Assembly (NCBI GenBank): GCA_022360445.1
Contig: JAKSCV010000058.1
Span: 1-64,000 of the forward strand
Direction of reading: 5' to 3'
From: Gammaproteobacteria bacterium
GTDB taxonomy: Bacteria; Pseudomonadota; Gammaproteobacteria; UBA5861
DNA length: 64,000 nt
Made by a program: the position numbers and the translations under genes. Of this stretch, positions 1 to 19,877 are shown in pieces; the first letter of the stretch is position 1; each line of letters opens with the position of its first letter. Under the pieces are notes generated by a model. The model worked only from the letters and a program-made list of their open reading frames with translations. It was not told where the DNA came from and did no database searches.

Positions 1-1578
1 CCGACCTTTGGTGACCCACTGGCACGTAATTTCTTATCCGACCAAACTCTCAGCGATCGCTTTTTCTCGCTACTGGTTTTTCTACATATCGGTATCCCTC
101 TGGTCCTTTTATTGGGCATGTTCATTCATATCAACCGGATTGCCAGCGCCAAAACCAACCCACCTTTAGGTTTGGCTGTGGGCACGACCGCGGCTTTCGT
201 GATCCTCTCGCTGATCAAACCCGCTGTCAGCGCAGGTCCGGCTGATCTTTCTCAACTCCAAACGGAACTGCCATTTGACTGGTTCTTTATCACCGCATAC
301 CCCTTGATTGAAACATGGGGCGCCATCCCTGTATGGCTTCTGCTGGCCGGAGGCAGTGCGATTCTGATCATTCTGCCTTGGGTTTTAAACCCAAAACCAC
401 ACACCAAACCCGCCGTTGTCGATCCAGACTATTGCAACGGTTGTGGCTGGTGTGAACAGGACTGTCCCTACAGCGCAATTGAATACATCCCCCATACCAA
501 TCCTCAGTACAAACGAATGGTCCGTGTCATTGAAGACAAGTGCACCGCCTGCGGGATTTGCATGGGTGCTTGCCCGACACACTGGGATAAAACCTCCGGG
601 CAGACGAAAAGTGGTATTGGCCTGCCTGACTTTAACCCCGAGCACTTGCAACAAAAAATCCATGCACATCTAAGCAAGCTCAGAAGCAACAAGACTGTGC
701 TGGTTTTTGGCTGCGACCACAGTGTTGATGTCCGTCTCATTCAAGCCGAAGGCATCACCTGCATGAGTCTACCCTGTACCGGTATGCTCCCTCCTTCTTT
801 TGTTGACATGCTGTTAAAGGATCAGCGCGTTGGCGGGGTATTCATGACCGGTTGCAACCCTAATGACTGCTACTTCCGATCAGGGAGCGAATGGACCTCA
901 CAACGCATGAGCGGGCAACGTATGCCCAAACTGCGCACCAACTTATCAAAAAGTGACAGTAAGCTCTGTCTGCATTGGGAAAGCGCCAACCAACAAAGTG
1001 CCCTGGTCGAAAAAATCTTAACGTTTCAACAATCGTTAAATAACCCACCCATACCGCTCAAACCTAAACACACTCGTCACGTGAGGCACTATGCCGCACA
1101 GGCATTGTTTTACAGTTTTTTTGTTTTCTTTATCGGCTTTTTTGCGACCAGCCCAGCGTATACGCAAATTCCTGCGGGACATGCGGTGATCAAACTCAGC
1201 TTACGCCATACCAGCCAACTCATCGGCGAATGTCAAACCCTTTCAGAAGAAGCGCTGGCACAACTGCCCGCCAATATGCGCCATGCTGAATTATGTCCAC
1301 GAGAAAGATCACCCGTTGATATCCAGCTGCTCATCAATGATGAAGCAATTTTGCATGAAACGATTACCCCTTCCGGCTTCCAAAAAGATGGCCGTGCAAA
1401 TTTTTATCGACGCTTTACAATGCCCAAAGGGCAATACACCCTTACCGTCCGAATGAAAGACAATGTAGAATTAGCGCATTTTAATTACACCAGCGTGCAT
1501 GCTGTAAACCTGAACGAAGGCGAGGTGCTTGTTATCGACTTTGACCCAGACTCGCAAACGTTCTCATTCACGCACTGA
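1..1578 (+). CDS. Cytochrome b / 2x[4Fe-4S] ferredoxin / FlpD-type membrane fusion protein (5' end missing)
   Basis: The reading frame is open from base 1, so the start lies upstream of the window. The first in-window segment is cytochrome b-like, with two His 14 residues apart in one helix (in LHIGIPLVLL and FIHINR), the spacing of heme b ligands. After further membrane spans come two [4Fe-4S] motifs, CNGCGWCEQDCP (about 433-468) and CTACGICMGACP (541-576). A Cys-containing domain at about 700-930 (FGCDHSVDV, LPCTGMLPPS, TGCNPNDC) resembles FlpD/MvhD hydrogenase iron-sulfur subunits. The C-terminus adds another membrane span (about 1090-1160) and a roughly 130-residue probably periplasmic domain that I do not recognise. 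It is followed by ctaA and an unusual heme-copper subunit I, so an electron-transfer role for that protein is likely but inferred. The domain calls are firm; the overall function is unknown. Confidence 0.8.
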   Translation, partial: PTFGDPLARNFLSDQTLSDRFFSLLVFLHIGIPLVLLLGMFIHINRIASAKTNPPLGLAVGTTAAFVILSLIKPAVSAGPADLSQLQTELPFDWFFITAYPLIETWGAIPVWLLLAGGSAILIILPWVLNPKPHTKPAVVDPDYCNGCGWCEQDCPYSAIEYIPHTNPQYKRMVRVIEDKCTACGICMGACPTHWDKTSGQTKSGIGLPDFNPEHLQQKIHAHLSKLRSNKTVLVFGCDHSVDVRLIQAEGITCMSLPCTGMLPPSFVDMLLKDQRVGGVFMTGCNPNDCYFRSGSEWTSQRMSGQRMPKLRTNLSKSDSKLCLHWESANQQSALVEKILTFQQSLNNPPIPLKPKHTRHVRHYAAQALFYSFFVFFIGFFATSPAYTQIPAGHAVIKLSLRHTSQLIGECQTLSEEALAQLPANMRHAELCPRERSPVDIQLLINDEAILHETITPSGFQKDGRANFYRRFTMPKGQYTLTVRMKDNVELAHFNYTSVHAVNLNEGEVLVIDFDPDSQTFSFTH

Positions 1579-1635: not shown

Positions 1636-1692
1636 ATGCATCACCACAAAGACAACAACCATGACAAAGACACTCTCCGAATACAGAAATGA
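1636..1692 (+). CDS. Possible 18-residue His-rich upstream ORF overlapping the ctaA start
   Basis: An ATG eight bases after a good ribosome site (AAGGATCT) opens an 18-codon frame beginning MHHHKDNNHDKD. It ends with TGA inside ctaA and is out of frame with it. The ctaA ATG at 1661 has no comparable ribosome site of its own, so translational coupling through this small frame is possible. It may equally be chance. Confidence 0.2.
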   Translation: MHHHKDNNHDKDTLRIQK

Positions 1693-2740
1693 CCGGATCG
1701 TCGCCGGGTGGCTGATCAGCGTAGCGGCCGTTATTTTTTGCATGATACTACTGGGCGGCGCAACTCGCTTGACCCATTCAGGTTTATCCATGGTCGACTG
1801 GAAACCGATTATGGGCGTGATTCCCCCACTTTCAGAAGCGGACTGGCTGGCCACCTTCGAACAATACAAACAATTCCCCGAATACCAGAAAATCAACCGG
1901 GGGATGTCGTTATCCGACTTCAAGTCCATTTTTTATTTTGAATATTTTCACCGCTTGCTCGGGCGGGCGATCGGGCTGATTTTTTTAATTCCTTTTCTTG
2001 CGCTTTGGGCCCGGGGTATGATCCGCAAGCCGCTCCTCCCGCAAATGATTCTGTTGTTTATTTTAGGTGGCGCACAAGGACTTTTAGGTTGGTACATGGT
2101 TAAAAGCGGTTTGGTCAATAATCCTTTTGTTAGCCAATATCGGCTGACCGCTCATCTCATGGCCGCTGTTATCATATACGGATACCTGCTCTGGATCGCA
2201 TTCAGCCTGTTGTCGAGACGCTCATTAACACCCACCCTACCCAATCGAGGTCTCTATTGTTGGAGCCTCTTCTTGACTGGGTTGATTGCCCTGATGATCG
2301 CAACGGGCGGCTTTGTCGCGGGCACAAAAGCCGGTCTGACTTATAACACCTTCCCGCTGATGGAGGGGCGGTTGATTCCAGAGGGAATGTATTCCATACA
2401 ACCTTTCTGGATAAACTGGTTTGAGAACGTCACCACCATACAGTTTAATCACCGTCTGCTTGCGTATATTTTATTCTTTACTCTGCCTGTCTGGGCGTTG
2501 GCCGTTCGTCGCAACGGCCCGACGTCAAGTAGCCGAAATGCAAGCCATGTCCTCATTATTGTTTTGCTGCTACAAGTCTCACTCGGTATTGCAACCCTTC
2601 TGTTGCGCGTTCCACCCACGCTGGGTGTCCTGCACCAAGGCGGCGCCATCCTGTTGTTTACAGTCGCGCTTTTTATTACTCGTGAAGTGAAACCTCTGCT
2701 GTCAGCCTCACCCAACCCGAACCATTCTAATTATCGTTAA
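1661..2740 (+). CDS. ctaA: Heme A synthase (COX15/CtaA)
   Basis: This 359-residue multi-span membrane protein converts heme O to heme A for terminal oxidases. It shows the family signatures GGATRLTHSGLSMVDW near the N-terminus, FHRLLGR, FNHRLLAY and VLHQGGA, which carry the conserved heme-binding His. The length fits the proteobacterial type. An in-frame start at 1529 would lie inside the upstream gene and add a basic, non-homologous leader, so the ATG at 1661 (MTKTLSEYRND) is preferred. Only four bases separate it from the downstream heme-copper subunit. The partner enzyme, heme O synthase (ctaB), is at 13889-14746. Confidence 0.93.
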   Translation: MTKTLSEYRNDRIVAGWLISVAAVIFCMILLGGATRLTHSGLSMVDWKPIMGVIPPLSEADWLATFEQYKQFPEYQKINRGMSLSDFKSIFYFEYFHRLLGRAIGLIFLIPFLALWARGMIRKPLLPQMILLFILGGAQGLLGWYMVKSGLVNNPFVSQYRLTAHLMAAVIIYGYLLWIAFSLLSRRSLTPTLPNRGLYCWSLFLTGLIALMIATGGFVAGTKAGLTYNTFPLMEGRLIPEGMYSIQPFWINWFENVTTIQFNHRLLAYILFFTLPVWALAVRRNGPTSSSRNASHVLIIVLLLQVSLGIATLLLRVPPTLGVLHQGGAILLFTVALFITREVKPLLSASPNPNHSNYR

Positions 2741-2744
2741 ACCT

Positions 2745-4106
2745 ATGCAAACCCATCGTTACACACTGCAAGCCATTTCAACAACCGCTAACCAGCAGGC
2801 AATTTCCTGGCTCAAACTGGGGATTTTATCGCTCGCAGCTGCCGGAATTTTTTCTATTCTTCTGGTGCTCTCCCGCACACCGGCCATTCAAGAAATCATC
2901 CCATTTACAGACTTTTTCCACATTGCCTTGGTGGTGCATGTCGATCTGTCTGTACTGATCTGGTTTCTTTCCTGTGCTGGCCTTCTTTGGAGCCTCGTCA
3001 CACCCAATCATGGTACACGACTGGACCGGCTTCCACTCGCTTTGGCGCTCGCCGGAAGCATTATGATCATTATTGCGCCCTTCATCGGCATCGGCGCGCC
3101 TCTGATGAATAATTATGTGCCAGTCCTGGATCATCCGTTTTACCTGTCGGCCCTGTGTATTTTTGGCGCAGGCATGTTGATGCAATTACTGCTTACCTTA
3201 ATCTTTGCGCACCCTGAACTCGGCGCAGACACAAACGAAAGCGTGTTGAAGTCCGGCGCCTACCTTGCTGCGGCTGCAACGCTGGCGGCCTTTCTGGGTC
3301 TTTTGCTGAGCTACCTGTCGATACCGCCTGTGGTGGAAGGCCATGGCTACTATGAAATCTTATTCTGGGGCGGCGGACACATTTTGCAATTTGCCTACAC
3401 ATTGCTGATGCTGATGGTGTGGCTGTGGCTGAGTGATGCAACCGGGGCACGCATCAACTTGGGCCCCAGCGTGCTCAAAGGTCTGATGTTCATCACGGTC
3501 GCGCCCATTCTTTACAGCATCTGGATCTATAGTCAGTTCGATGTTCTTTCCCCCCAACACCGGCTGGGGTTTACAGACTTAATGACATACGGGGGGCTGG
3601 CATCTCTGCCACTCGGGCTGATCATCACACAAGCTATCCTGCGGGCCGAAAAAACACAGGCCAGAGACAAGAAGCCGATTAAAGCAGCGCTATTGGCCTC
3701 CATTACGCTGTTCGCAGCCGGCGGTGTGATCGGTTTTATGATCGAAGGCGTGAATGTCGTCATCCCGGCGCACTATCACGGCTCCATTGTCGGCATAACG
3801 CTGGCCTTTATGGGCCTGACTTATTATTTACTGCCCCAATTTGGCTATGCGGCTCCCGACTCAAAGACAGCCCATTGGCAACCGTATATTTACGGTGGGG
3901 GGCAGTTGATGCACATCCTTGGCCTGGCATGGTCTGGGGGTTATGGCGTTCAGCGCAAAACCGCAGGCGCCGCCCAGGGGCTAGACAGACTACCCGAAAT
4001 CGCCGGTATGGGTATGATGGGGCTTGGCGGCGCTATTTCGATTATTGGAGGGTTTTTATTTGTAATCATCGCAATTAAAGCTTTCAATACAAAAAGCATT
4101 AACTGA
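2745..4106 (+). CDS. Divergent heme-copper oxidase superfamily subunit I lacking the helix-VII CuB His pair (candidate NO reductase)
   Basis: This 453-residue polytopic protein aligns with the B-type subunit I at 14825-16522. Heme ligands are kept: H65 (VVHVDLSVLIWF) and H343/H345 in AHYHGSIVGITLAFMG, matching GHFHATVVLGTTLAFMG. The helix VI His is also kept (H212 in GGGHILQF), but the residue four on, Tyr in oxygen reductases, is Phe216. The helix VII His-His pair is replaced by Gln264-Phe265, followed by Asp266 (QFDVLSP against HHLLVDP, ungapped). Such a site should not bind CuB normally. Several nitric oxide reductase families of this superfamily have altered CuB ligands and no Tyr, so NO reduction is a reasonable inference in this denitrifier; a non-catalytic role is also possible. 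It is co-transcribed with ctaA and the cytochrome b/FlpD fusion. Confidence 0.75.
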   Translation: MQTHRYTLQAISTTANQQAISWLKLGILSLAAAGIFSILLVLSRTPAIQEIIPFTDFFHIALVVHVDLSVLIWFLSCAGLLWSLVTPNHGTRLDRLPLALALAGSIMIIIAPFIGIGAPLMNNYVPVLDHPFYLSALCIFGAGMLMQLLLTLIFAHPELGADTNESVLKSGAYLAAAATLAAFLGLLLSYLSIPPVVEGHGYYEILFWGGGHILQFAYTLLMLMVWLWLSDATGARINLGPSVLKGLMFITVAPILYSIWIYSQFDVLSPQHRLGFTDLMTYGGLASLPLGLIITQAILRAEKTQARDKKPIKAALLASITLFAAGGVIGFMIEGVNVVIPAHYHGSIVGITLAFMGLTYYLLPQFGYAAPDSKTAHWQPYIYGGGQLMHILGLAWSGGYGVQRKTAGAAQGLDRLPEIAGMGMMGLGGAISIIGGFLFVIIAIKAFNTKSIN

Positions 4107-10512: not shown

Positions 10513-10920
10513 CTAATCGATCAGTTGTGCCAAGCCTTTGAATACAAGCTCACTGTAACTGACGACACCCACGACATTACCTTCTTTGATCACCGGTGCA
10601 TTGGATAAACCGAAGCGGTTAAACAGCCGGGCACAATATCGCACATCCAACTCGGGATCGACGGGAACAACGGGTTTCGACATAATCTCATACACATTCA
10701 CCCGATTGGGCGCTTTATCTTTTGCCAGCACTTTTTTCACAATATCTGACAACAATATAAGCCCGTAAGCATCGTGCTCATCCCGTTTTTTAACAATGGC
10801 CATTTCCGTATTGTGTGCTTGCATTTCACGCAATGCGTCCTTGACTGTGACCAAGCCTTCGATTTCCAAATGCTGCTCACGCATGACATCACGTACCTTA
10901 ATGACTTTTCCCTTGATCAC
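10513..10920 (-). CDS. CBS-domain pair protein
   Basis: This 135-residue protein is built almost entirely of two CBS motifs: VRDVMREQHLEIEG...ILLSDIVKKVL, and YEIMSKPVVPVDPELDV...APVIKEGNVVGVVSYSEL. CBS pairs bind adenine nucleotides and regulate enzymes or transporters. It overlaps the end of the P-II-like gene by four bases and is the last gene of a cluster with two DUF1538 membrane proteins. A role in sensing energy charge for those proteins is a reasonable inference. Confidence 0.85.
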   Translation of the reverse strand: MIKGKVIKVRDVMREQHLEIEGLVTVKDALREMQAHNTEMAIVKKRDEHDAYGLILLSDIVKKVLAKDKAPNRVNVYEIMSKPVVPVDPELDVRYCARLFNRFGLSNAPVIKEGNVVGVVSYSELVFKGLAQLID

Positions 10921-11267
10921 AGCATGTCCTCCACTTCCTGAGTAATTTTTTCAGCCTGGTGTACAACGCCAACAGCGTCCTCTACATCCACCTGAAACGC
11001 GATGCCCGTGCCTGGTTTGGAGTCAAACTCACCAACCTGGCCGATTTCTTCCAAAATATGGCGGCTTAAGTGCTCTTCAACCAAAAACAGGATGACGTCA
11101 CGCTGCGTTTCCAGGGAGAGCCCGAAAAATGTCTTGGACTTTTTAAGCCCTTCACCCCGTGCATTGTTAATCACTGTCGCCCCGGTTGCACCCGCTTTGC
11201 GCGCAGCATCCATGACAGCATCGGTTTTGTCATCTTCAACGAAGACCATAATCATTTTAAAGTGCAT
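10917..11267 (-). CDS. P-II-family signalling protein, non-canonical
   Basis: The 116-residue protein has the P-II-like ferredoxin fold: it starts MHFKMIMVFVEDDKTDAVMDAARKAGATGATV, has a central loop INNARGEGLKKSKTFFGL, and the C-terminal TGIAFQVDVEDAVGV. The T-loop is shorter than in GlnB/GlnK and lacks the Tyr that is uridylylated there, so it is not a standard nitrogen regulator. Its neighbours suggest it controls the adjacent DUF1538 membrane proteins, much as GlnK controls AmtB. The effector is unknown. Confidence 0.82.
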   Translation of the reverse strand: MHFKMIMVFVEDDKTDAVMDAARKAGATGATVINNARGEGLKKSKTFFGLSLETQRDVILFLVEEHLSRHILEEIGQVGEFDSKPGTGIAFQVDVEDAVGVVHQAEKITQEVEDML

Positions 11268-11287
11268 GTTTTAACCTCATACAGGCT

Positions 11288-12100
11288 TTATTGGCTCTGC
11301 GCGACGTCTCTTTTTTTCCGCGCCCTCTTAATATAGGTTGTTTTAAGTTCCGACAACTGTGCATATGCCATGACCGACATGATCGGAAACAAGCTGGCAA
11401 ACGCAATCAAACCAAATCCATCAATTAAGGGGTTTCTCCCTGGCACCGTTTCCGACAACCCCAACCCTAACGCAGCAACGAGTGGCACGGTCACTGTCGA
11501 TGTCGTCACGCCGCCAGAATCATACGCCAGCGGAATAATTAACTTGGGCGCAATGGACGTTTGCATGACAACAATGACGTAGCCGGCAATAATGTACCAG
11601 TGAATCGGATCACCCACGACAATCCGGTAGCAGCCCAGTGAAATCCCCACGGCCACACCAATGGCTACCGCAATGCGCAGACCCCAGACGCCAATAGCCC
11701 CGCCCGACACGGTATTGGCCTTAATGGCTACTGCAATCAGTGAAGGCTCGGCGATTGTAGTACTGAAACCAATTAAAAATGCGAACAAATACACCCAGTA
11801 ATAGTCACGCCAGTTAATGCCCGCAATGGCGTCGGCACTGACACTGGCGGCTTGAATGAAATCCGGGTTGGTGAGCTGTTCGGCCATGAGACGGCCAAGC
11901 GGGAACAAGCACCATTCCAAACCCAGGAGAAAAAAAGAGAGCCCAATCAACACCCAGGCAAACCCCATTAAAATTTGCCCAAGATTCGCCGGCTTCTTCC
12001 GAATGACGAGAAATTGAAAGCCAAAAATAATCGCAGCGATGGGCAACACATCCAGCACTGTGCCGGCTAGAGTTTCTGTCAGATCCGCCAAAATATCCAT
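11288..12100 (-). CDS. DUF1538 membrane protein (copy 2)
   Basis: This 270-residue polytopic protein shares with its upstream neighbour the motifs TTIAEPSLIAVA and [20 protein letters not shown], and ends with [17 protein letters not shown]. These recur in DUF1538 proteins. The conserved DSGG and polar Thr/Ser motifs inside hydrophobic segments suggest a transporter or channel, though the substrate is unknown. It abuts the upstream DUF1538 gene with a one-base overlap and is followed by the P-II-like and CBS genes, indicating a regulated two-subunit transport system. Confidence 0.85.
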   Translation of the reverse strand: MDILADLTETLAGTVLDVLPIAAIIFGFQFLVIRKKPANLGQILMGFAWVLIGLSFFLLGLEWCLFPLGRLMAEQLTNPDFIQAASVSADAIAGINWRDYYWVYLFAFLIGFSTTIAEPSLIAVAIKANTVSGGAIGVWGLRIAVAIGVAVGISLGCYRIVVGDPIHWYIIAGYVIVVMQTSIAPKLIIPLAYDSGGVTTSTVTVPLVAALGLGLSETVPGRNPLIDGFGLIAFASLFPIMSVMAYAQLSELKTTYIKRARKKRDVAQSQ

Positions 12101-12846
12101 CAGATAATCATTCCATAGGCCATAACAAAGATCATGGGTGTCAATGATGCGAAAGCAATCAGACCAAAACCGTCAACCATCGGATTCCGCCCCCGAATGG
12201 AAGAGGCCAGCCCCACTCCCAGAGCCGTCACCAGAGGCACCGTAATCGTTGAAGTCGTCACCCCACCTGAGTCATAGGCGATGCCAATAATCTCTTTGGG
12301 TGCAAAAAAGGTCATAATGACCACAATGATATAACCGCCAATAATGATCCATTGGATTGGCCAACCTTTAAGAATACGTATCACGCCGACGACAATCGCG
12401 ATCCCCACCGAAAATGCCACCGTGATACGTAACCCCGTGGCATACTCTTCTTTGGCAGCAGCGGTGGCCTTGATCATATTGCCGTTCGCCGCCACCTCTG
12501 CTGCCTCTGCCGCAACGGCGATTAAGGCAGGCTCTGCAACGGTCGTCCCAAAGCCCAACGCAAAAGCAAATACAATCAACCAAAATGCGCTGCCTTTGCG
12601 GGCAAAAGCATGGGCCATGGACTCGCCAATGGGAAACAGGCCTTGCTCAAGCCCATGAATAAAAAACGTCAACCCGAGTACAACAAAGAGAACTCCGACT
12701 AATAATTGAGTCACATTGGGCAACGGCTGTTGCAGTACGGCAAGCTGAAAGAAAAGAATGACGCATACAATCGGCAGTAAATCACGAAAGCTACCCATCA
12801 TCGATTTTATTAAGTTAAGAAGCGTTCCTTTCACCACACATTCCAT
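12100..12846 (-). CDS. DUF1538 membrane protein (copy 1)
   Basis: The 248-residue paralogue of the following gene carries [41 protein letters not shown] and [17 protein letters not shown]. It has many membrane spans and no cytoplasmic enzyme domain. It is the first gene of the four-gene cluster. The 156 bases upstream (12847-13002), before the SCO1 stop, should carry the promoter, but I see no clear -10/-35 pair. The ATG at 12846 lacks a strong ribosome site, so the exact start is uncertain. Confidence 0.82.
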
Positions 12847-13002: not shown

Positions 13003-13857
13003 TTATTTCCTGTCGGACCTATTTTGAACCGCGCGTGAATACCGCCACTCACGCCGCAGAATGATTAAAAAGATGCTCCCTAAGAGTAAGCCCACGAATA
13101 CGCCAACAAAAATTGAAAAGTCATAAAAGTAGCGGTCCTGTTTGGGGTCATAAACTGTACAAAATAATTTGACTTGCTTAGCCAGCTTTGAGAAAAAGCT
13201 GTCCTCCAGCTTTTCGCCAAAAATCAGGGCCTTCAGAGGTTCAACAAAATGGGGCGTTTGCGGCAGGTTGCCATACACCTGACGAACAACTTTGCCATGA
13301 CGATCAAGAATCGTCGCCTGAATGAGGTGATCAAACCCTACAGCACTTTTGACAAAAATAAAGCCCAGTTCATGGCTCAAGGCCTGAATAACGCCTGGAC
13401 CCGCCGCCAGGAAAAACCAATTATCCGCCCCCGCATACTGTGCCTTGGCAAAGTGCCCCATGGCTTCTGGCGTATCCCGAGCAGAATCAAAACCAATGGT
13501 CAGCACATTAAAGCTGTCGGCCCCTAAAACATCACGGGCTTTCATAACAACTTTATGCAAGTTTTGGGTCGTCATGGGGCAAATGTGATAGCAACTGGTG
13601 TAGATCATACTGATCACGAGTGGTTTATCCCGAAACTGTTGCAAGGAAACAGACTGCCCCTGGCTATCCGTCAGCGGATAATTCCCCACGATATTCCCAA
13701 GAGCGGATTGACTCACCGCTAACGCGTCTTCCGTACTAAATGTTTGAATTTGATCAAGCTCTCTCTTTGCGGATTCCACATTGGCCAGCACCCATTGGGG
13801 ACCGAACAAACAAAACAAAAGGAGATATCGCCAACTAATTTCGAAAGCTGTTTTCAT
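13003..13857 (-). CDS. senC: SCO1/SenC copper chaperone
   Basis: This SCO family protein (about 284 residues) delivers copper to CuA of subunit II and is part of norSY-senC clusters. It has a signal or anchor segment, the metal and redox motif SCYHICP (Cys about 89 and 93), the distal His in VGFDHLIQA (about 177), and an unusual C-terminal membrane span (FVGVFVGLLLGSIFLIIL) with a short basic tail. A TTG nine bases upstream is possible, but ATG gives the better signal segment. It lies downstream of ctaB and the oxidase-like pair in the same direction. Confidence 0.9.
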   Translation of the reverse strand: MKTAFEISWRYLLLFCLFGPQWVLANVESAKRELDQIQTFSTEDALAVSQSALGNIVGNYPLTDSQGQSVSLQQFRDKPLVISMIYTSCYHICPMTTQNLHKVVMKARDVLGADSFNVLTIGFDSARDTPEAMGHFAKAQYAGADNWFFLAAGPGVIQALSHELGFIFVKSAVGFDHLIQATILDRHGKVVRQVYGNLPQTPHFVEPLKALIFGEKLEDSFFSKLAKQVKLFCTVYDPKQDRYFYDFSIFVGVFVGLLLGSIFLIILRREWRYSRAVQNRSDRK

Positions 13858-13888
13858 GATGATCAATATGCCGCTTGTGGGTATTGTC

Positions 13889-14746
13889 CTACGTAAGCTG
13901 ATCCAGAAAAGCCCCCAAAAGCACTGCCGTTAACTGCACCAGGGAGCCCAAAAAGCACCCTTTGGCCGTCGTGATGCCGGGATTACCCAGAAGCCGTACA
14001 CTTTTATAGATAAAATAACTCCCACCTAATGCTGCGCAGACCAGGTAAATATTCCCCAACCCCAGTTCCCAAAACAAAGGCATAAGTGACACGGCTACCA
14101 ACACGATCGTATTCAACAAAATGACTTGTGCAGCCCGCTTATCCCCAACAACAACAGGAAGCATGGGCACCTTGGCCTGTTCATAGTCTTGATGCAATGC
14201 AATTGCCAGACTCCAGAAGTGAGGTGGCGTCCATAGAAACAAAACCAGTGCAAGCAATAACGATGCGGGGGCTAAGTACGGATCGGCAGCTGCTGCGCCT
14301 GCCAACACAGCAAAACCGCCGGCAGCCCCCCCAATAACAATATTCCACACACTGCGCCGCTTTAGCCACAAGGTATAGATGACGCCATAAAAAAAGGCGC
14401 CTAAAAACAAATGAATAGAAACAGCAAAGTTAAAAACCCATGCTGCGATCAACACGGAAAAAGCAAGCAGGCCGACAATCACAAACAACCAATATTGACT
14501 GTGTTGAAAGTGCCCGGCGGCAAATACTCGATTCTGCGTTCGCTTCATGAGTGCATCGAGGTCCTTCTCGGCGTATTGGTTAAACGCTCCGGCACTCGCA
14601 GAAGAGGCCAAGACCAAACAAGCCAGCAAGATCATTTCCGGCATGCTCAACGTTGTACCCGGCGTTACGGCAAATCCTGCCATGGCAGTAAATGCCATCA
14701 TGACACCAATACGTATCTTAAATAAATCAATGAGCTGCGCAATCAT
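13889..14746 (-). CDS. ctaB: Protoheme IX farnesyltransferase (heme O synthase)
   Basis: This 285-residue UbiA-superfamily membrane enzyme attaches farnesyl to heme b. Its signatures are NQYAEKDLDALMKRTQNR (the prenyl-diphosphate NxxxDxxxD-type site), LWLKRRSVWNIVIGG and LFLWTPPHFWSLAIALHQDYEQAKVPM with the YxxxxxPM element. Together with ctaA at 1661 it makes heme A. It sits between the subunit I gene and SCO1, so it probably supplies the heme for that enzyme. A hairpin with a T-rich end just upstream may reduce read-through into it. Confidence 0.93.
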   Translation of the reverse strand: MIAQLIDLFKIRIGVMMAFTAMAGFAVTPGTTLSMPEMILLACLVLASSASAGAFNQYAEKDLDALMKRTQNRVFAAGHFQHSQYWLFVIVGLLAFSVLIAAWVFNFAVSIHLFLGAFFYGVIYTLWLKRRSVWNIVIGGAAGGFAVLAGAAAADPYLAPASLLLALVLFLWTPPHFWSLAIALHQDYEQAKVPMLPVVVGDKRAAQVILLNTIVLVAVSLMPLFWELGLGNIYLVCAALGGSYFIYKSVRLLGNPGITTAKGCFLGSLVQLTAVLLGAFLDQLT

Positions 14747-14824: not shown

Positions 14825-16522
14825 TTAACTCATTCCCCATGTCTCTGCCAGGTACTTCCAGTTAATGAAGTAATAGACAACAAAGGCAATCAAAAAGACA
14901 CCGGCAAGCAGCAGGGTTCCTGAAATCGCATTACCTGAGCGATGCAAGGTGACATATTGTGCTTCGGTGGGTGGCGTGGCGACCATAACACGGGGAAACG
15001 TTTCTTCCTGTCCCACCTTTTTGCCAAAGAGTAGGGTGCCAACAATGACCAGGCAGAACATGCCTCCGCCAATCGCCGCGAGCACCACACTTAAACCATT
15101 TAATGACATTAAAGCCATGGCCGAGGAGGGGAACTCATAAGGAAAGCTGCTACTTGTGAAAGCAGCATCCCAATGACGTCGTGGCAGGCCTAAAGTGCCT
15201 GCACCCATCATAAAGACAGATACGCCAGTCATACCCAAACCAAAAATATAAGGCTGCCATTTACACCAGGACGTTAAGATCAGTTCGCGCCGAAATAGCA
15301 CAGGGACTAACCAGTAAGTAATACCCATAAATGCAAGTGTGGTACCTAAGACGACGGTTGCGTGAAAGTGCCCAGGAACATAAAGCGTATTATGCACGAT
15401 CAAATTCAGCTGCTCTGCTCCCATCATCACCCCGGAAATCCCTCCGAGAAAACCAAACCCGACAATCGAAATCATGGTTGATGAAAAGACAGGGTTACCC
15501 CAAGGGGCTTTACGCAACCACTCAAACAGTCCATTCGTGTAACCACGCGCTCTTTGGGCAGCCTCCATGGAACCGGGAACAGTCAGGCCATGAACCATGC
15601 TGGCCATAACGGCCAAGTACATGGCATAGCTGGTGTTGAATATTTTCCACTCTGTTCCAACCCCCGGATCCACCAGTAAATGATGCGCACTGGCAATTTG
15701 AAGGACAGCAATGTAGAGCACAAAAGCAAACCGGCTGACTTTTTCAGACAAAGGCTTGGCACCAAATACCAGTGCGCCGACCATGTACCAGACTGTCACA
15801 TGCGTTGCGACATTGATCTGCTGTGAGGAGTGCCCGAAGGCCCACCAGATCAAGCGGTATACACCCGCATCAATGTTGCTTACGTACCCCAGTTGCCACA
15901 ACAATGTGGGCACTAAAATAATCGCCCCGGAGGCAATGGTGAAAATCGCGATAATACAAGCTGTTAGCCCGCCGAATGTCACCAGAGGAATAGAACCTTC
16001 ATAGGTTTTTTCCTTTTTGGCAATCACCAGGGTTCCGAGAAAAATAAAACAGCCGATCAACGCACCAACGGCGAATAATATCAAGCCCAGATAAAATGCC
16101 CAGTGCGCGGGCATCGGTGCATAAGACGTCATCATCACCGCGGAGCTCAACGACCACACCGCATAGTTATTGACCAAGGCCCCAATAACCATCAACAAAA
16201 AGGCGAGATACCCCAGTTTTGGTGTTGCCAGGCGACACCCCAAAACCACCGACGAAACAAAATACAAGGCTGCAATTTCAAAGAAAATAATCCAGAAAAT
16301 TAAGACGTTAATGCCATGCGATGTCAACGTTGTATAAAAATCCTGAGGCCCCAGCAAGTGAACTTCCGGCCAGCGCGTTAAGCCCACACCGATCCCCATG
16401 ATTCCACCTACCAGGAGAAAGACAACTGCCGCCACAGCGTTCAGTTTAATTAATGTTTCAGCTGGACCGTGGAATCGCAGCCCCGTATCGGGGCAGGTCC
16501 TGAAAATAGCGTTATTTGTCAC
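14825..16522 (-). CDS. B-type heme-copper subunit I with active-site Tyr replaced by Gln (sNOR/NorS-like)
   Basis: The 565-residue polytopic subunit retains the low-spin heme ligand H69 (LTSHGINVLIFW), the helix X pair H385/H387 (GHFHATVVLGTTLAFMG) and all three CuB His: H231 and H280-H281 (ASAHHLLVDPG). Family B oxygen reductases have Tyr four residues after the helix VI His (HPxxY). Here the sequence is H231-S-S-Q-Q235, so the cross-linked Tyr is absent. The order subunit II, subunit I, heme O synthase, SenC with loss of this Tyr resembles sNOR (norSY-senC) NO reductases rather than a ba3 oxidase. NO reduction is inferred; an atypical oxygen reductase is the alternative. Confidence 0.85.
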   Translation of the reverse strand: MTNNAIFRTCPDTGLRFHGPAETLIKLNAVAAVVFLLVGGIMGIGVGLTRWPEVHLLGPQDFYTTLTSHGINVLIFWIIFFEIAALYFVSSVVLGCRLATPKLGYLAFLLMVIGALVNNYAVWSLSSAVMMTSYAPMPAHWAFYLGLILFAVGALIGCFIFLGTLVIAKKEKTYEGSIPLVTFGGLTACIIAIFTIASGAIILVPTLLWQLGYVSNIDAGVYRLIWWAFGHSSQQINVATHVTVWYMVGALVFGAKPLSEKVSRFAFVLYIAVLQIASAHHLLVDPGVGTEWKIFNTSYAMYLAVMASMVHGLTVPGSMEAAQRARGYTNGLFEWLRKAPWGNPVFSSTMISIVGFGFLGGISGVMMGAEQLNLIVHNTLYVPGHFHATVVLGTTLAFMGITYWLVPVLFRRELILTSWCKWQPYIFGLGMTGVSVFMMGAGTLGLPRRHWDAAFTSSSFPYEFPSSAMALMSLNGLSVVLAAIGGGMFCLVIVGTLLFGKKVGQEETFPRVMVATPPTEAQYVTLHRSGNAISGTLLLAGVFLIAFVVYYFINWKYLAETWGMS

Positions 16523-16534
16523 GACTACCCCTCC

Positions 16535-17083
16535 TTACTCAACAACGTAAATTTTACCCACCATGTTATGGTGGTTGATGCCGCAGTACTCGTTACAGAT
16601 AACAGAGTACTCGCCTGTCGCATTGGGTGTGATTGTCAGCACGTGTTCATATCCTGGCAACACCTGGATATTCAGATTCGCAGGTTGCAGAGAAAAGCCG
16701 TGATTCCAATCGATTGAGTTCAAGTGAAGGCGGTAACTCTGGCCTTGTTTAAGCTCCAGAATCGGCCACCAGTCCCACAAGCGCGCCACCATATAAATAT
16801 CTTCACCCGCCGGTGGGGCAACCACTGGGAACTGACGATCCCCCTCTGTTCTCACTGTGTACTGATCAACAAAGGCCTGAGTTTTTTCCATATACCTTTG
16901 TGGCGTGGTTCGGTAAGTTTCCGTCGACAAATTCTGTTCACCGAAAATATGCCAGAGCGGCATCATCAAGGTCAGAATAATGCCCCAAATAACAACAATA
17001 AAAATCCAGATCAATTCTGCCCGGTCAATCGGTTTTTTCCACCAGACTTTTTGATCAGGAGGCGATAAGCTGGTCATTGCCAT
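16535..17083 (-). CDS. CuA-containing subunit II of the B-type heme-copper enzyme (NorY-like)
   Basis: The short 182-residue subunit II has one N-terminal membrane anchor (about 25-45, AELIWIFIVVIWGIILTLMM) and a cupredoxin domain. The complete CuA site is visible: H128 (DWNHGF), C163 and C167, H171 and M174 in CNEYCGINHHNM. It therefore accepts electrons from a soluble donor such as cytochrome c. The length matches ba3-type and NorY proteins. The GAGG ribosome site fits either of two nearby ATGs (17083 or 17077). It precedes subunit I by 12 bases. Confidence 0.93.
   Translation of the reverse strand: MAMTSLSPPDQKVWWKKPIDRAELIWIFIVVIWGIILTLMMPLWHIFGEQNLSTETYRTTPQRYMEKTQAFVDQYTVRTEGDRQFPVVAPPAGEDIYMVARLWDWWPILELKQGQSYRLHLNSIDWNHGFSLQPANLNIQVLPGYEHVLTITPNATGEYSVICNEYCGINHHNMVGKIYVVE

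Positions 17084-18029: not shown

Positions 18030-19877
<1,848 letters not shown>

Follow-up and report, generated by a model that had tools for sequence, protein, structure and literature searches.

What can a homologue of heme-copper subunit I do if it carries the heme ligands of a terminal oxidase and no His pair for CuB? This question is raised by a gene located near the beginning of the window, i.e. the whole 64,000-nucleotide stretch analysed in this study (contig JAKSCV010000058.1 of a gammaproteobacterium of the UBA5861 lineage). We coined the name HCOx for the product of this gene and for the family to which it belongs. The features of the window that bear on the question are as follows:

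1..1578 (+): membrane fusion protein (N-terminal cytochrome b/b6 domain, two 4Fe-4S, FlpD/MvhD domain) whose gene runs off the contig at its 5′ side
1661..2740 (+): ctaA, encoding the heme A synthase (COX15-CtaA) and separated by 4 bp from the downstream HCOx gene
2745..4106 (+): HCOx, CuB-less heme-copper subunit I homologue (453 aa, complete ORF)
13003..13866 (-): copper chaperone of SCO1/SenC type, belonging to the eNOR cluster
13889..14746 (-): heme O synthase gene ctaB (TIGR01473 match exceeding the cut-off)
14825..16522 (-): subunit I of eNOR type, the second such gene in the window (HH in helix VII; GHSSQQ, with Gln where the Tyr would be)
16535..17083 (-): subunit II with the CuA motif CNEYCGINHHNM
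18063..19877 (+): nirS-type cytochrome cd1 nitrite reductase, as read from the sequence alone and listed for context only

The HCOx gene and its genome

The coordinates and reading frame of the HCOx ORF are those reported in an earlier note on this DNA, which had assigned the product to the heme-copper subunit I proteins. This assignment was upheld by a match to the Pfam profile PF00115 (COX1; 53 bits, curated cut-off 34.8) and by an AlphaFold model built with 16 homologues (pTM 0.88, mean pLDDT 83), for which a Foldseek search returned subunits I of ba3 and aa3 oxidases as the top PDB folds (E about 1e-7, TM about 0.7). HCOx, having both the 12-helix fold and the COX1 profile, is a heme-copper subunit I homologue. 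No NCBIfam model matches the protein, nor does NCBIfam hold a name for the family; a phmmer search of the PDB with the single sequence and a search of a plasmid collection gave no matches. We found no prior description of the family in the open-access literature; an earlier mention is possible. Comparison with a 94%-identical relative from Halothiobacillaceae bacterium UBA5861 (locus L005) yielded a dN/dS of 0.10, i.e. the gene is under purifying selection and is a working gene.

The same relative helped to define the neighbouring genes. The ctaA ORF is listed from position 1529, and its start at 1661 was inferred from the L005 orthologue (MTKTLSEYRN). The complete counterpart of the truncated cytochrome b/FeS/FlpD fusion gene is located at L005 4788-6836, where it is preceded by a gene for a Crp/Fnr-type regulator; the start of this row of genes lies off the window's contig. 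The eNOR assignment of the second subunit I rests on a published signature table, in which the Tyr position is occupied by Gln in eNOR, Asp in gNOR and Asn in sNOR (PMC8756737); an sNOR label for this gene was dropped, since its Gln signature matches eNOR. On the minus strand (10513-12846), the window also encodes a CBS-domain protein, a P-II-like protein and two neighbouring, similar membrane proteins, which, judging from their translations, apparently form one operon.

The source genome (97.9% complete) contains four COX1 genes (A-type, cbb3, eNOR-type and HCOx); cNOR and qNOR genes were not found in it. The only ctaA gene detected is the one adjoining HCOx, and the aa3 cluster, located on another contig (C63; coxII-coxI-ctaG-coxIII-surf1-ctaB), has no ctaA. 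For this reason the CtaA-HCOx pair presumably serves the aa3 oxidase; perhaps it would serve eNOR as well.

Heme ligands and the CuB site

We surveyed the residues of 80 HCOx homologues, originating from Gammaproteobacteria (as defined by GTDB), from other members of the same phylum and from a single MAG with the label Nitrospirae. This analysis revealed that H212, Q215, H343, H345, W208, W226 and Y124 are conserved in 100% of the proteins, and R44, H65, R404 and K405 in approximately 99%. The His ligands of the low-spin heme (helices II and X) and of the high-spin heme (helix X), i.e. H65, H343 and H345, are thus nearly invariant, and the earlier note was right in describing them, as well as H212 of helix VI, as intact. 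It was also right in reporting a helix VII devoid of the CuB His pair: HH occurs in 0/80 members within the aligned columns 255-272, and its absence is a trait of the whole family. From the His triad that binds CuB or FeB in catalytic reductases, H212 alone is present. The cross-linked Tyr of oxygen reductases, four positions beyond the helix VI His, is replaced by Phe216 (F in 72/80 members), exactly as the note had read it. Since H65, H212, Q215, H343, H345, R404 and K405 are nearly invariant and the helix VII pair is absent, HCOx probably binds hemes and probably binds no CuB. The aligned counterparts of R44 are Arg50 in eNOR and the helix I Arg in A-type enzymes. In aa3 oxidases this Arg contacts the formyl group of heme a; the presence of R44 and its presumed formyl contact fit the linkage with ctaA and prove nothing.

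A further claim of the note, that Gln-Phe-Asp (Q264-F265-D266) stands in place of the CuB pair, with Q264 and D266 contributing to an unusual metal site, had to be abandoned. Profile-profile alignments place the His pair on I261-Y262 (eNOR clade, E 2e-29), between Y262 and S263 (B family, 6e-16) or on Y262-S263 (A family, 1.6e-5), in all cases a few residues before Q264-F265, and D266 aligns with an invariant, non-ligand Asp of the eNOR loop HHLLVDPG. The Q264-F265 register was reproduced by a low-scoring HMM match to 7deg, with an individual E-value of 3.1. Columns 260-266 are mostly variable within the family (n = 80). Their conservation percentiles (0 = most conserved) place Q264 (0.88), F265 (0.69) and D266 (0.72) among the less conserved columns, and the L005 relative has R at 264 and S at 265. 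Column variability and alignment register together rule out Q264-F265-D266 as a metal site. The note had stated that its reading would be refuted by a structure-based alignment with a different pair, such as Q271-H272, at the heme site; this has partly come true, as the profile alignment points to another pair, I261-Y262. Judging from these alignments, one His position appears to be often taken over by Tyr in the main branch of the family (Y262 is Tyr in 54/70 main-branch members), and Tyr is not among the leading residues at this position in the divergent branch associated with ccs genes.

These data also bear on the idea, put forward in the note, of an active enzyme reducing NO or O2 at a novel metal site that contains no copper. 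The invariance of one CuB His (H212) and of Gln215, the common occurrence of D or E at column 266 and the relatedness to eNOR (see below) would all be compatible with such an enzyme. We nevertheless regard it as highly improbable, because helix VII offers no conserved second or third ligand, position 262 is occupied by Tyr in only part of the main branch and not by Tyr among the leading residues of the ccs branch, Phe replaces the active-site Tyr, Gln or Glu, and nearly all loci are without a dedicated subunit II. A non-catalytic role, which the note had likewise considered, is plausible.

Phylogenetic position

In a tree with references of the A, B and C families, cNOR, qNOR and eNOR, all drawn from the same class, the HCOx proteins form one clade (SH-aLRT 99) with a long stem, located on the eNOR/B side. 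The eNOR references constitute a clade of their own (support 99), and HCOx lies outside it. The joining of HCOx with eNOR is not firm (support 93; an odd, long branch lies close by). It is consistent with the profile scores and, on this comparison of sequences, eNOR appears to be the nearest of the six reference groups. Placement of HCOx inside any of them is ruled out by the tree and the motifs. The view that the protein is neither a cNOR nor a qNOR is therefore corroborated by its clade as well as by its helix VII. Regarding the more recently defined NOR families, with which the note had wished to see it compared in a tree, HCOx is separated from eNOR by the tree, and from gNOR and sNOR by motif only, Phe216 occupying the position of their Asp and Asn. 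The Gln typical of eNOR is likewise absent from this position, Gln215 being located one residue earlier; a signature of nNOR at the Tyr position was not found in the literature searched.

The subunit I of eNOR, an NO reductase related to the B family, resembles HCOx in its fold and in Arg44, Gln215, Trp226, Trp73, HxH and Arg404. It keeps the helix VII HH and a CuA subunit II, and its Tyr position is occupied by Gln, whereas HCOx has no HH, has Phe at the Tyr position, is accompanied by a subunit II in one locus only and forms its own clade. The ba3 (B-family) and aa3 (A-family) oxygen reductases share the fold and the heme ligands with HCOx, which differs from them in having no CuB pair and no cross-linked Tyr, and in belonging to a separate clade. 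Two very long-branched COX1 proteins (L134 and L135), with the helix VI motifs GHTMTVIAAM and SAHAAALFMGG, fit no known group.

Gene neighbourhoods of the family

HCOx loci were collected by similarity to the query, so the linkage counts describe the sampled family, and contig ends hide some neighbours. A ctaA, ctaB, ccsA or resB gene is located within 8 kb of HCOx in 61/78 loci; together with the position of the sole ctaA directly upstream of HCOx in the window, this is the linkage to heme A synthesis and oxidase assembly genes that an assembly factor would show. At distances of up to 400 bp, ctaA was found in 18 loci, ctaB in 12 and a ccsA-like gene in 10. A gene of DUF420/CtaM, a known aa3 assembly factor (PMC9145763), is present near HCOx in 8 loci, in 7 of them no more than 430 bp away. 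In 12 loci, some of which suffer from a contig end, no heme or oxidase gene was found nearby.

The following contexts were distinguished: (i) eNOR clusters, containing genes of subunit II, subunit I, ctaB, senC/SCO, cytochrome b/4Fe-4S/FlpD, HCOx and often ctaA, (ii) aa3 oxidase assembly clusters, in which HCOx is accompanied by ctaB, ctaA, SURF1, Cox11 and coxIII, and (iii) ResB-CcsA-HCOx-TPR-thioredoxin clusters, occupied by a divergent branch of the family. One member of this branch was modelled with AlphaFold and has the subunit I fold too (pTM 0.74). The third context represents a System II locus for cytochrome c maturation that is unusual in holding a heme-copper homologue; the adjoining CcsA-like and ResB-like proteins (CcsB/CcsA) belong to a protein family other than HCOx. 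The full or partial set of ResB-like, CcsA-like, HCOx, TPR and thioredoxin genes was observed in L094, L097, L098, L099, L101, L156, L158, L159, L161 and L162. Several genomes (e.g. G392, G402, G408, G419 and G456) harbor HCOx copies of the first or second context together with copies of the third, and in L067 two divergent copies (1514 and 5020) flank ctaA beside one eNOR cluster.

A cytochrome b/FeS/FlpD gene, whose product has ExtP as its best named relative (far below the cut-off), lies no more than 400 bp from HCOx in 21 loci. This proximity, the retained heme ligands and propionate Arg-Lys, and the thioredoxin or SCO genes of HCOx clusters would suit a two-heme, quinol- or cytochrome-linked electron carrier that would provide or withdraw electrons for CtaA/CcsA chemistry or act with the cytochrome b/FeS/FlpD protein, and that neither stores nor hands over heme. 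A CuA-type subunit II gene, which in L160 (7142-9439) overlaps in one row with DUF420 and HCOx, also speaks for such a redox partner. An adjacent subunit II was, however, found in no HCOx locus other than L160, and the loci of the aa3 and ccs contexts yielded no cytochrome b/FeS/FlpD gene, which therefore cannot be a general partner. We consider a purely electron-carrying function rather unlikely.

Exchange between clusters and co-occurrence

On the HCOx tree, the protein of the window falls among aa3-context members (L006, L007 and L009), outside the main eNOR-context clade. A constraint uniting the eNOR-context copies in one clade was rejected (AU p 1e-29); these copies were grouped by neighbourhood and not by the tree, with uncertain labels in the case of a few loci truncated at a contig end. 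The well-supported (starred) branches force at least 7 changes of context. The HCOx gene has therefore moved repeatedly between eNOR and aa3 clusters. Exchanges this frequent speak for a function from which both enzymes benefit, e.g. heme supply or insertion, and would not be expected of a dedicated eNOR subunit.

HCOx was identified in 48/370 genomes of the class (a weak, 94-bit match in G055 was left out) and eNOR in 34/370. The former is present in 28/34 genomes with eNOR vs 20/336 without it (Fisher 1.7e-23, relatedness ignored), an association that a structural accessory subunit of eNOR would readily explain. Many copies, however, reside in aa3 or ccs clusters, some HCOx genomes have no eNOR, and the contexts swap on the tree; an accessory subunit thus appears improbable, and the AU test, together with the existence of aa3 and ccs contexts, rules out a subunit confined to eNOR. 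Six of the 34 eNOR genomes are without HCOx (L104-L109), which shows that it is not essential for eNOR. The cytochrome b/FeS/FlpD gene is kept in 5/6 of these clusters, the sixth (L108) being cut by a contig end.

Genes of bacteriohemerythrin occur in or beside the eNOR clusters of L104 (12966-13364), L105, L106 (3422-3814) and L107, and adjoin ctaA in three of these HCOx-less clusters (L104, L106 and L107). Their location in some of these clusters, flanked by the FeS gene and ctaA, and the capacity of a copper-less heme pocket to bind gas, might suggest that the high-spin heme of HCOx binds O2 or NO reversibly and so buffers or senses gas, protecting heme synthesis and assembly. Bacteriohemerythrin also occurs together with HCOx (L057, L060, L075 and L102) and is ruled out as its replacement, the invariant H212 could cap the heme, and HCOx has no sensor domain; the probability of a gas-binding role is, in our opinion, low.

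A proposed role in heme handling

We propose that HCOx arose from a heme-copper subunit I by degeneration, does not reduce gases any more and was recruited as a heme-handling assembly factor, a proposal whose chances of being correct and incorrect we judge to be evenly balanced. It is based on the following: (i) H212, Q215, HxH and other residues of the heme sites are conserved, while columns 260-266 are mostly free and HH is missing, (ii) most loci are linked to heme-delivery genes, with DUF420/CtaM in eight, (iii) two distinct heme-delivery systems (heme A/O synthesis and ResB/CcsA/TPR/thioredoxin) adjoin HCOx, (iv) the sole detected ctaA lies immediately upstream of HCOx in a genome whose aa3 cluster lacks this gene, (v) the predicted fold is that of ba3/aa3 subunit I, (vi) HCOx swaps between eNOR and aa3 contexts and (vii) ctaA is more common in genomes with HCOx (44/48) than in others (198/322; Fisher 1.4e-5, relatedness ignored).

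From conservation, fold, clade, linkage and swapping, which the data show, we infer heme occupancy, ligation by H212, the transfer of heme with its direction, and the partner proteins. It would have kept the two-heme scaffold (helix II His, helix X HxH, the Arg-Lys for propionates and the helix VI His), whereas the CuB ligands of helix VII and the Tyr of the active site have disappeared. HCOx would accept heme O or A in the membrane, beside CtaA/CtaB, hold it, perhaps with H212 as the distal ligand now that copper is gone, and pass it to, or stabilise, the apo form of subunit I of eNOR and/or aa3 oxidase. The divergent branch may perform an equivalent task for c-type cytochromes beside CcsB/CcsA. 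CtaM/DUF420, Surf1 and CtaA share gene neighbourhoods and the membrane location with HCOx; their folds are unrelated to it, HCOx being built on subunit I itself. CtaA has a His-ligated heme, as is predicted for HCOx. The same likeness applies to Surf1, a proposed heme A chaperone that also has a His-ligated heme (PMC9145763).

Several observations count against a heme-handling role. The ctaA gene is present in 242/370 genomes of the class, most of which have no HCOx. Conversely, four HCOx genomes have no detectable ctaA (G237, G294 and G317 represent the ccs context, which does not account for G229), and 12 loci are without heme or oxidase genes. The dispensability of HCOx in some eNOR genomes also speaks against it. 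SURF1 co-occurs with HCOx in 9 loci, so the latter is not a simple SURF1 substitute. The best single contrary evidence is the overlapping CuA subunit II gene of L160, as expected of an electron-accepting enzyme. The more specific reading, that an oxidase subunit has turned into a heme-delivery protein, with sub-branches dedicated to heme A/O synthesis (for aa3 and eNOR) and to CcsBA (for cytochromes c), is possible, although we place it somewhat below an even chance.

HCOx, a copper-less homologue of subunit I without a name so far, is widespread in the class (48 of 370 genomes sampled) and linked to ctaA, ctaB, ctaM and ccsA. Its existence calls for caution with COX1 matches located next to nir genes, since these can be wrongly counted as terminal oxidases or NO reductases. 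According to a review of 2022 (PMC9145763), it is unknown by which route heme A enters subunit I, and HCOx offers a concrete gene and protein with which to address its insertion. If HCOx does deliver heme, one way for heme A to reach subunit I would be through the heme-copper fold itself.
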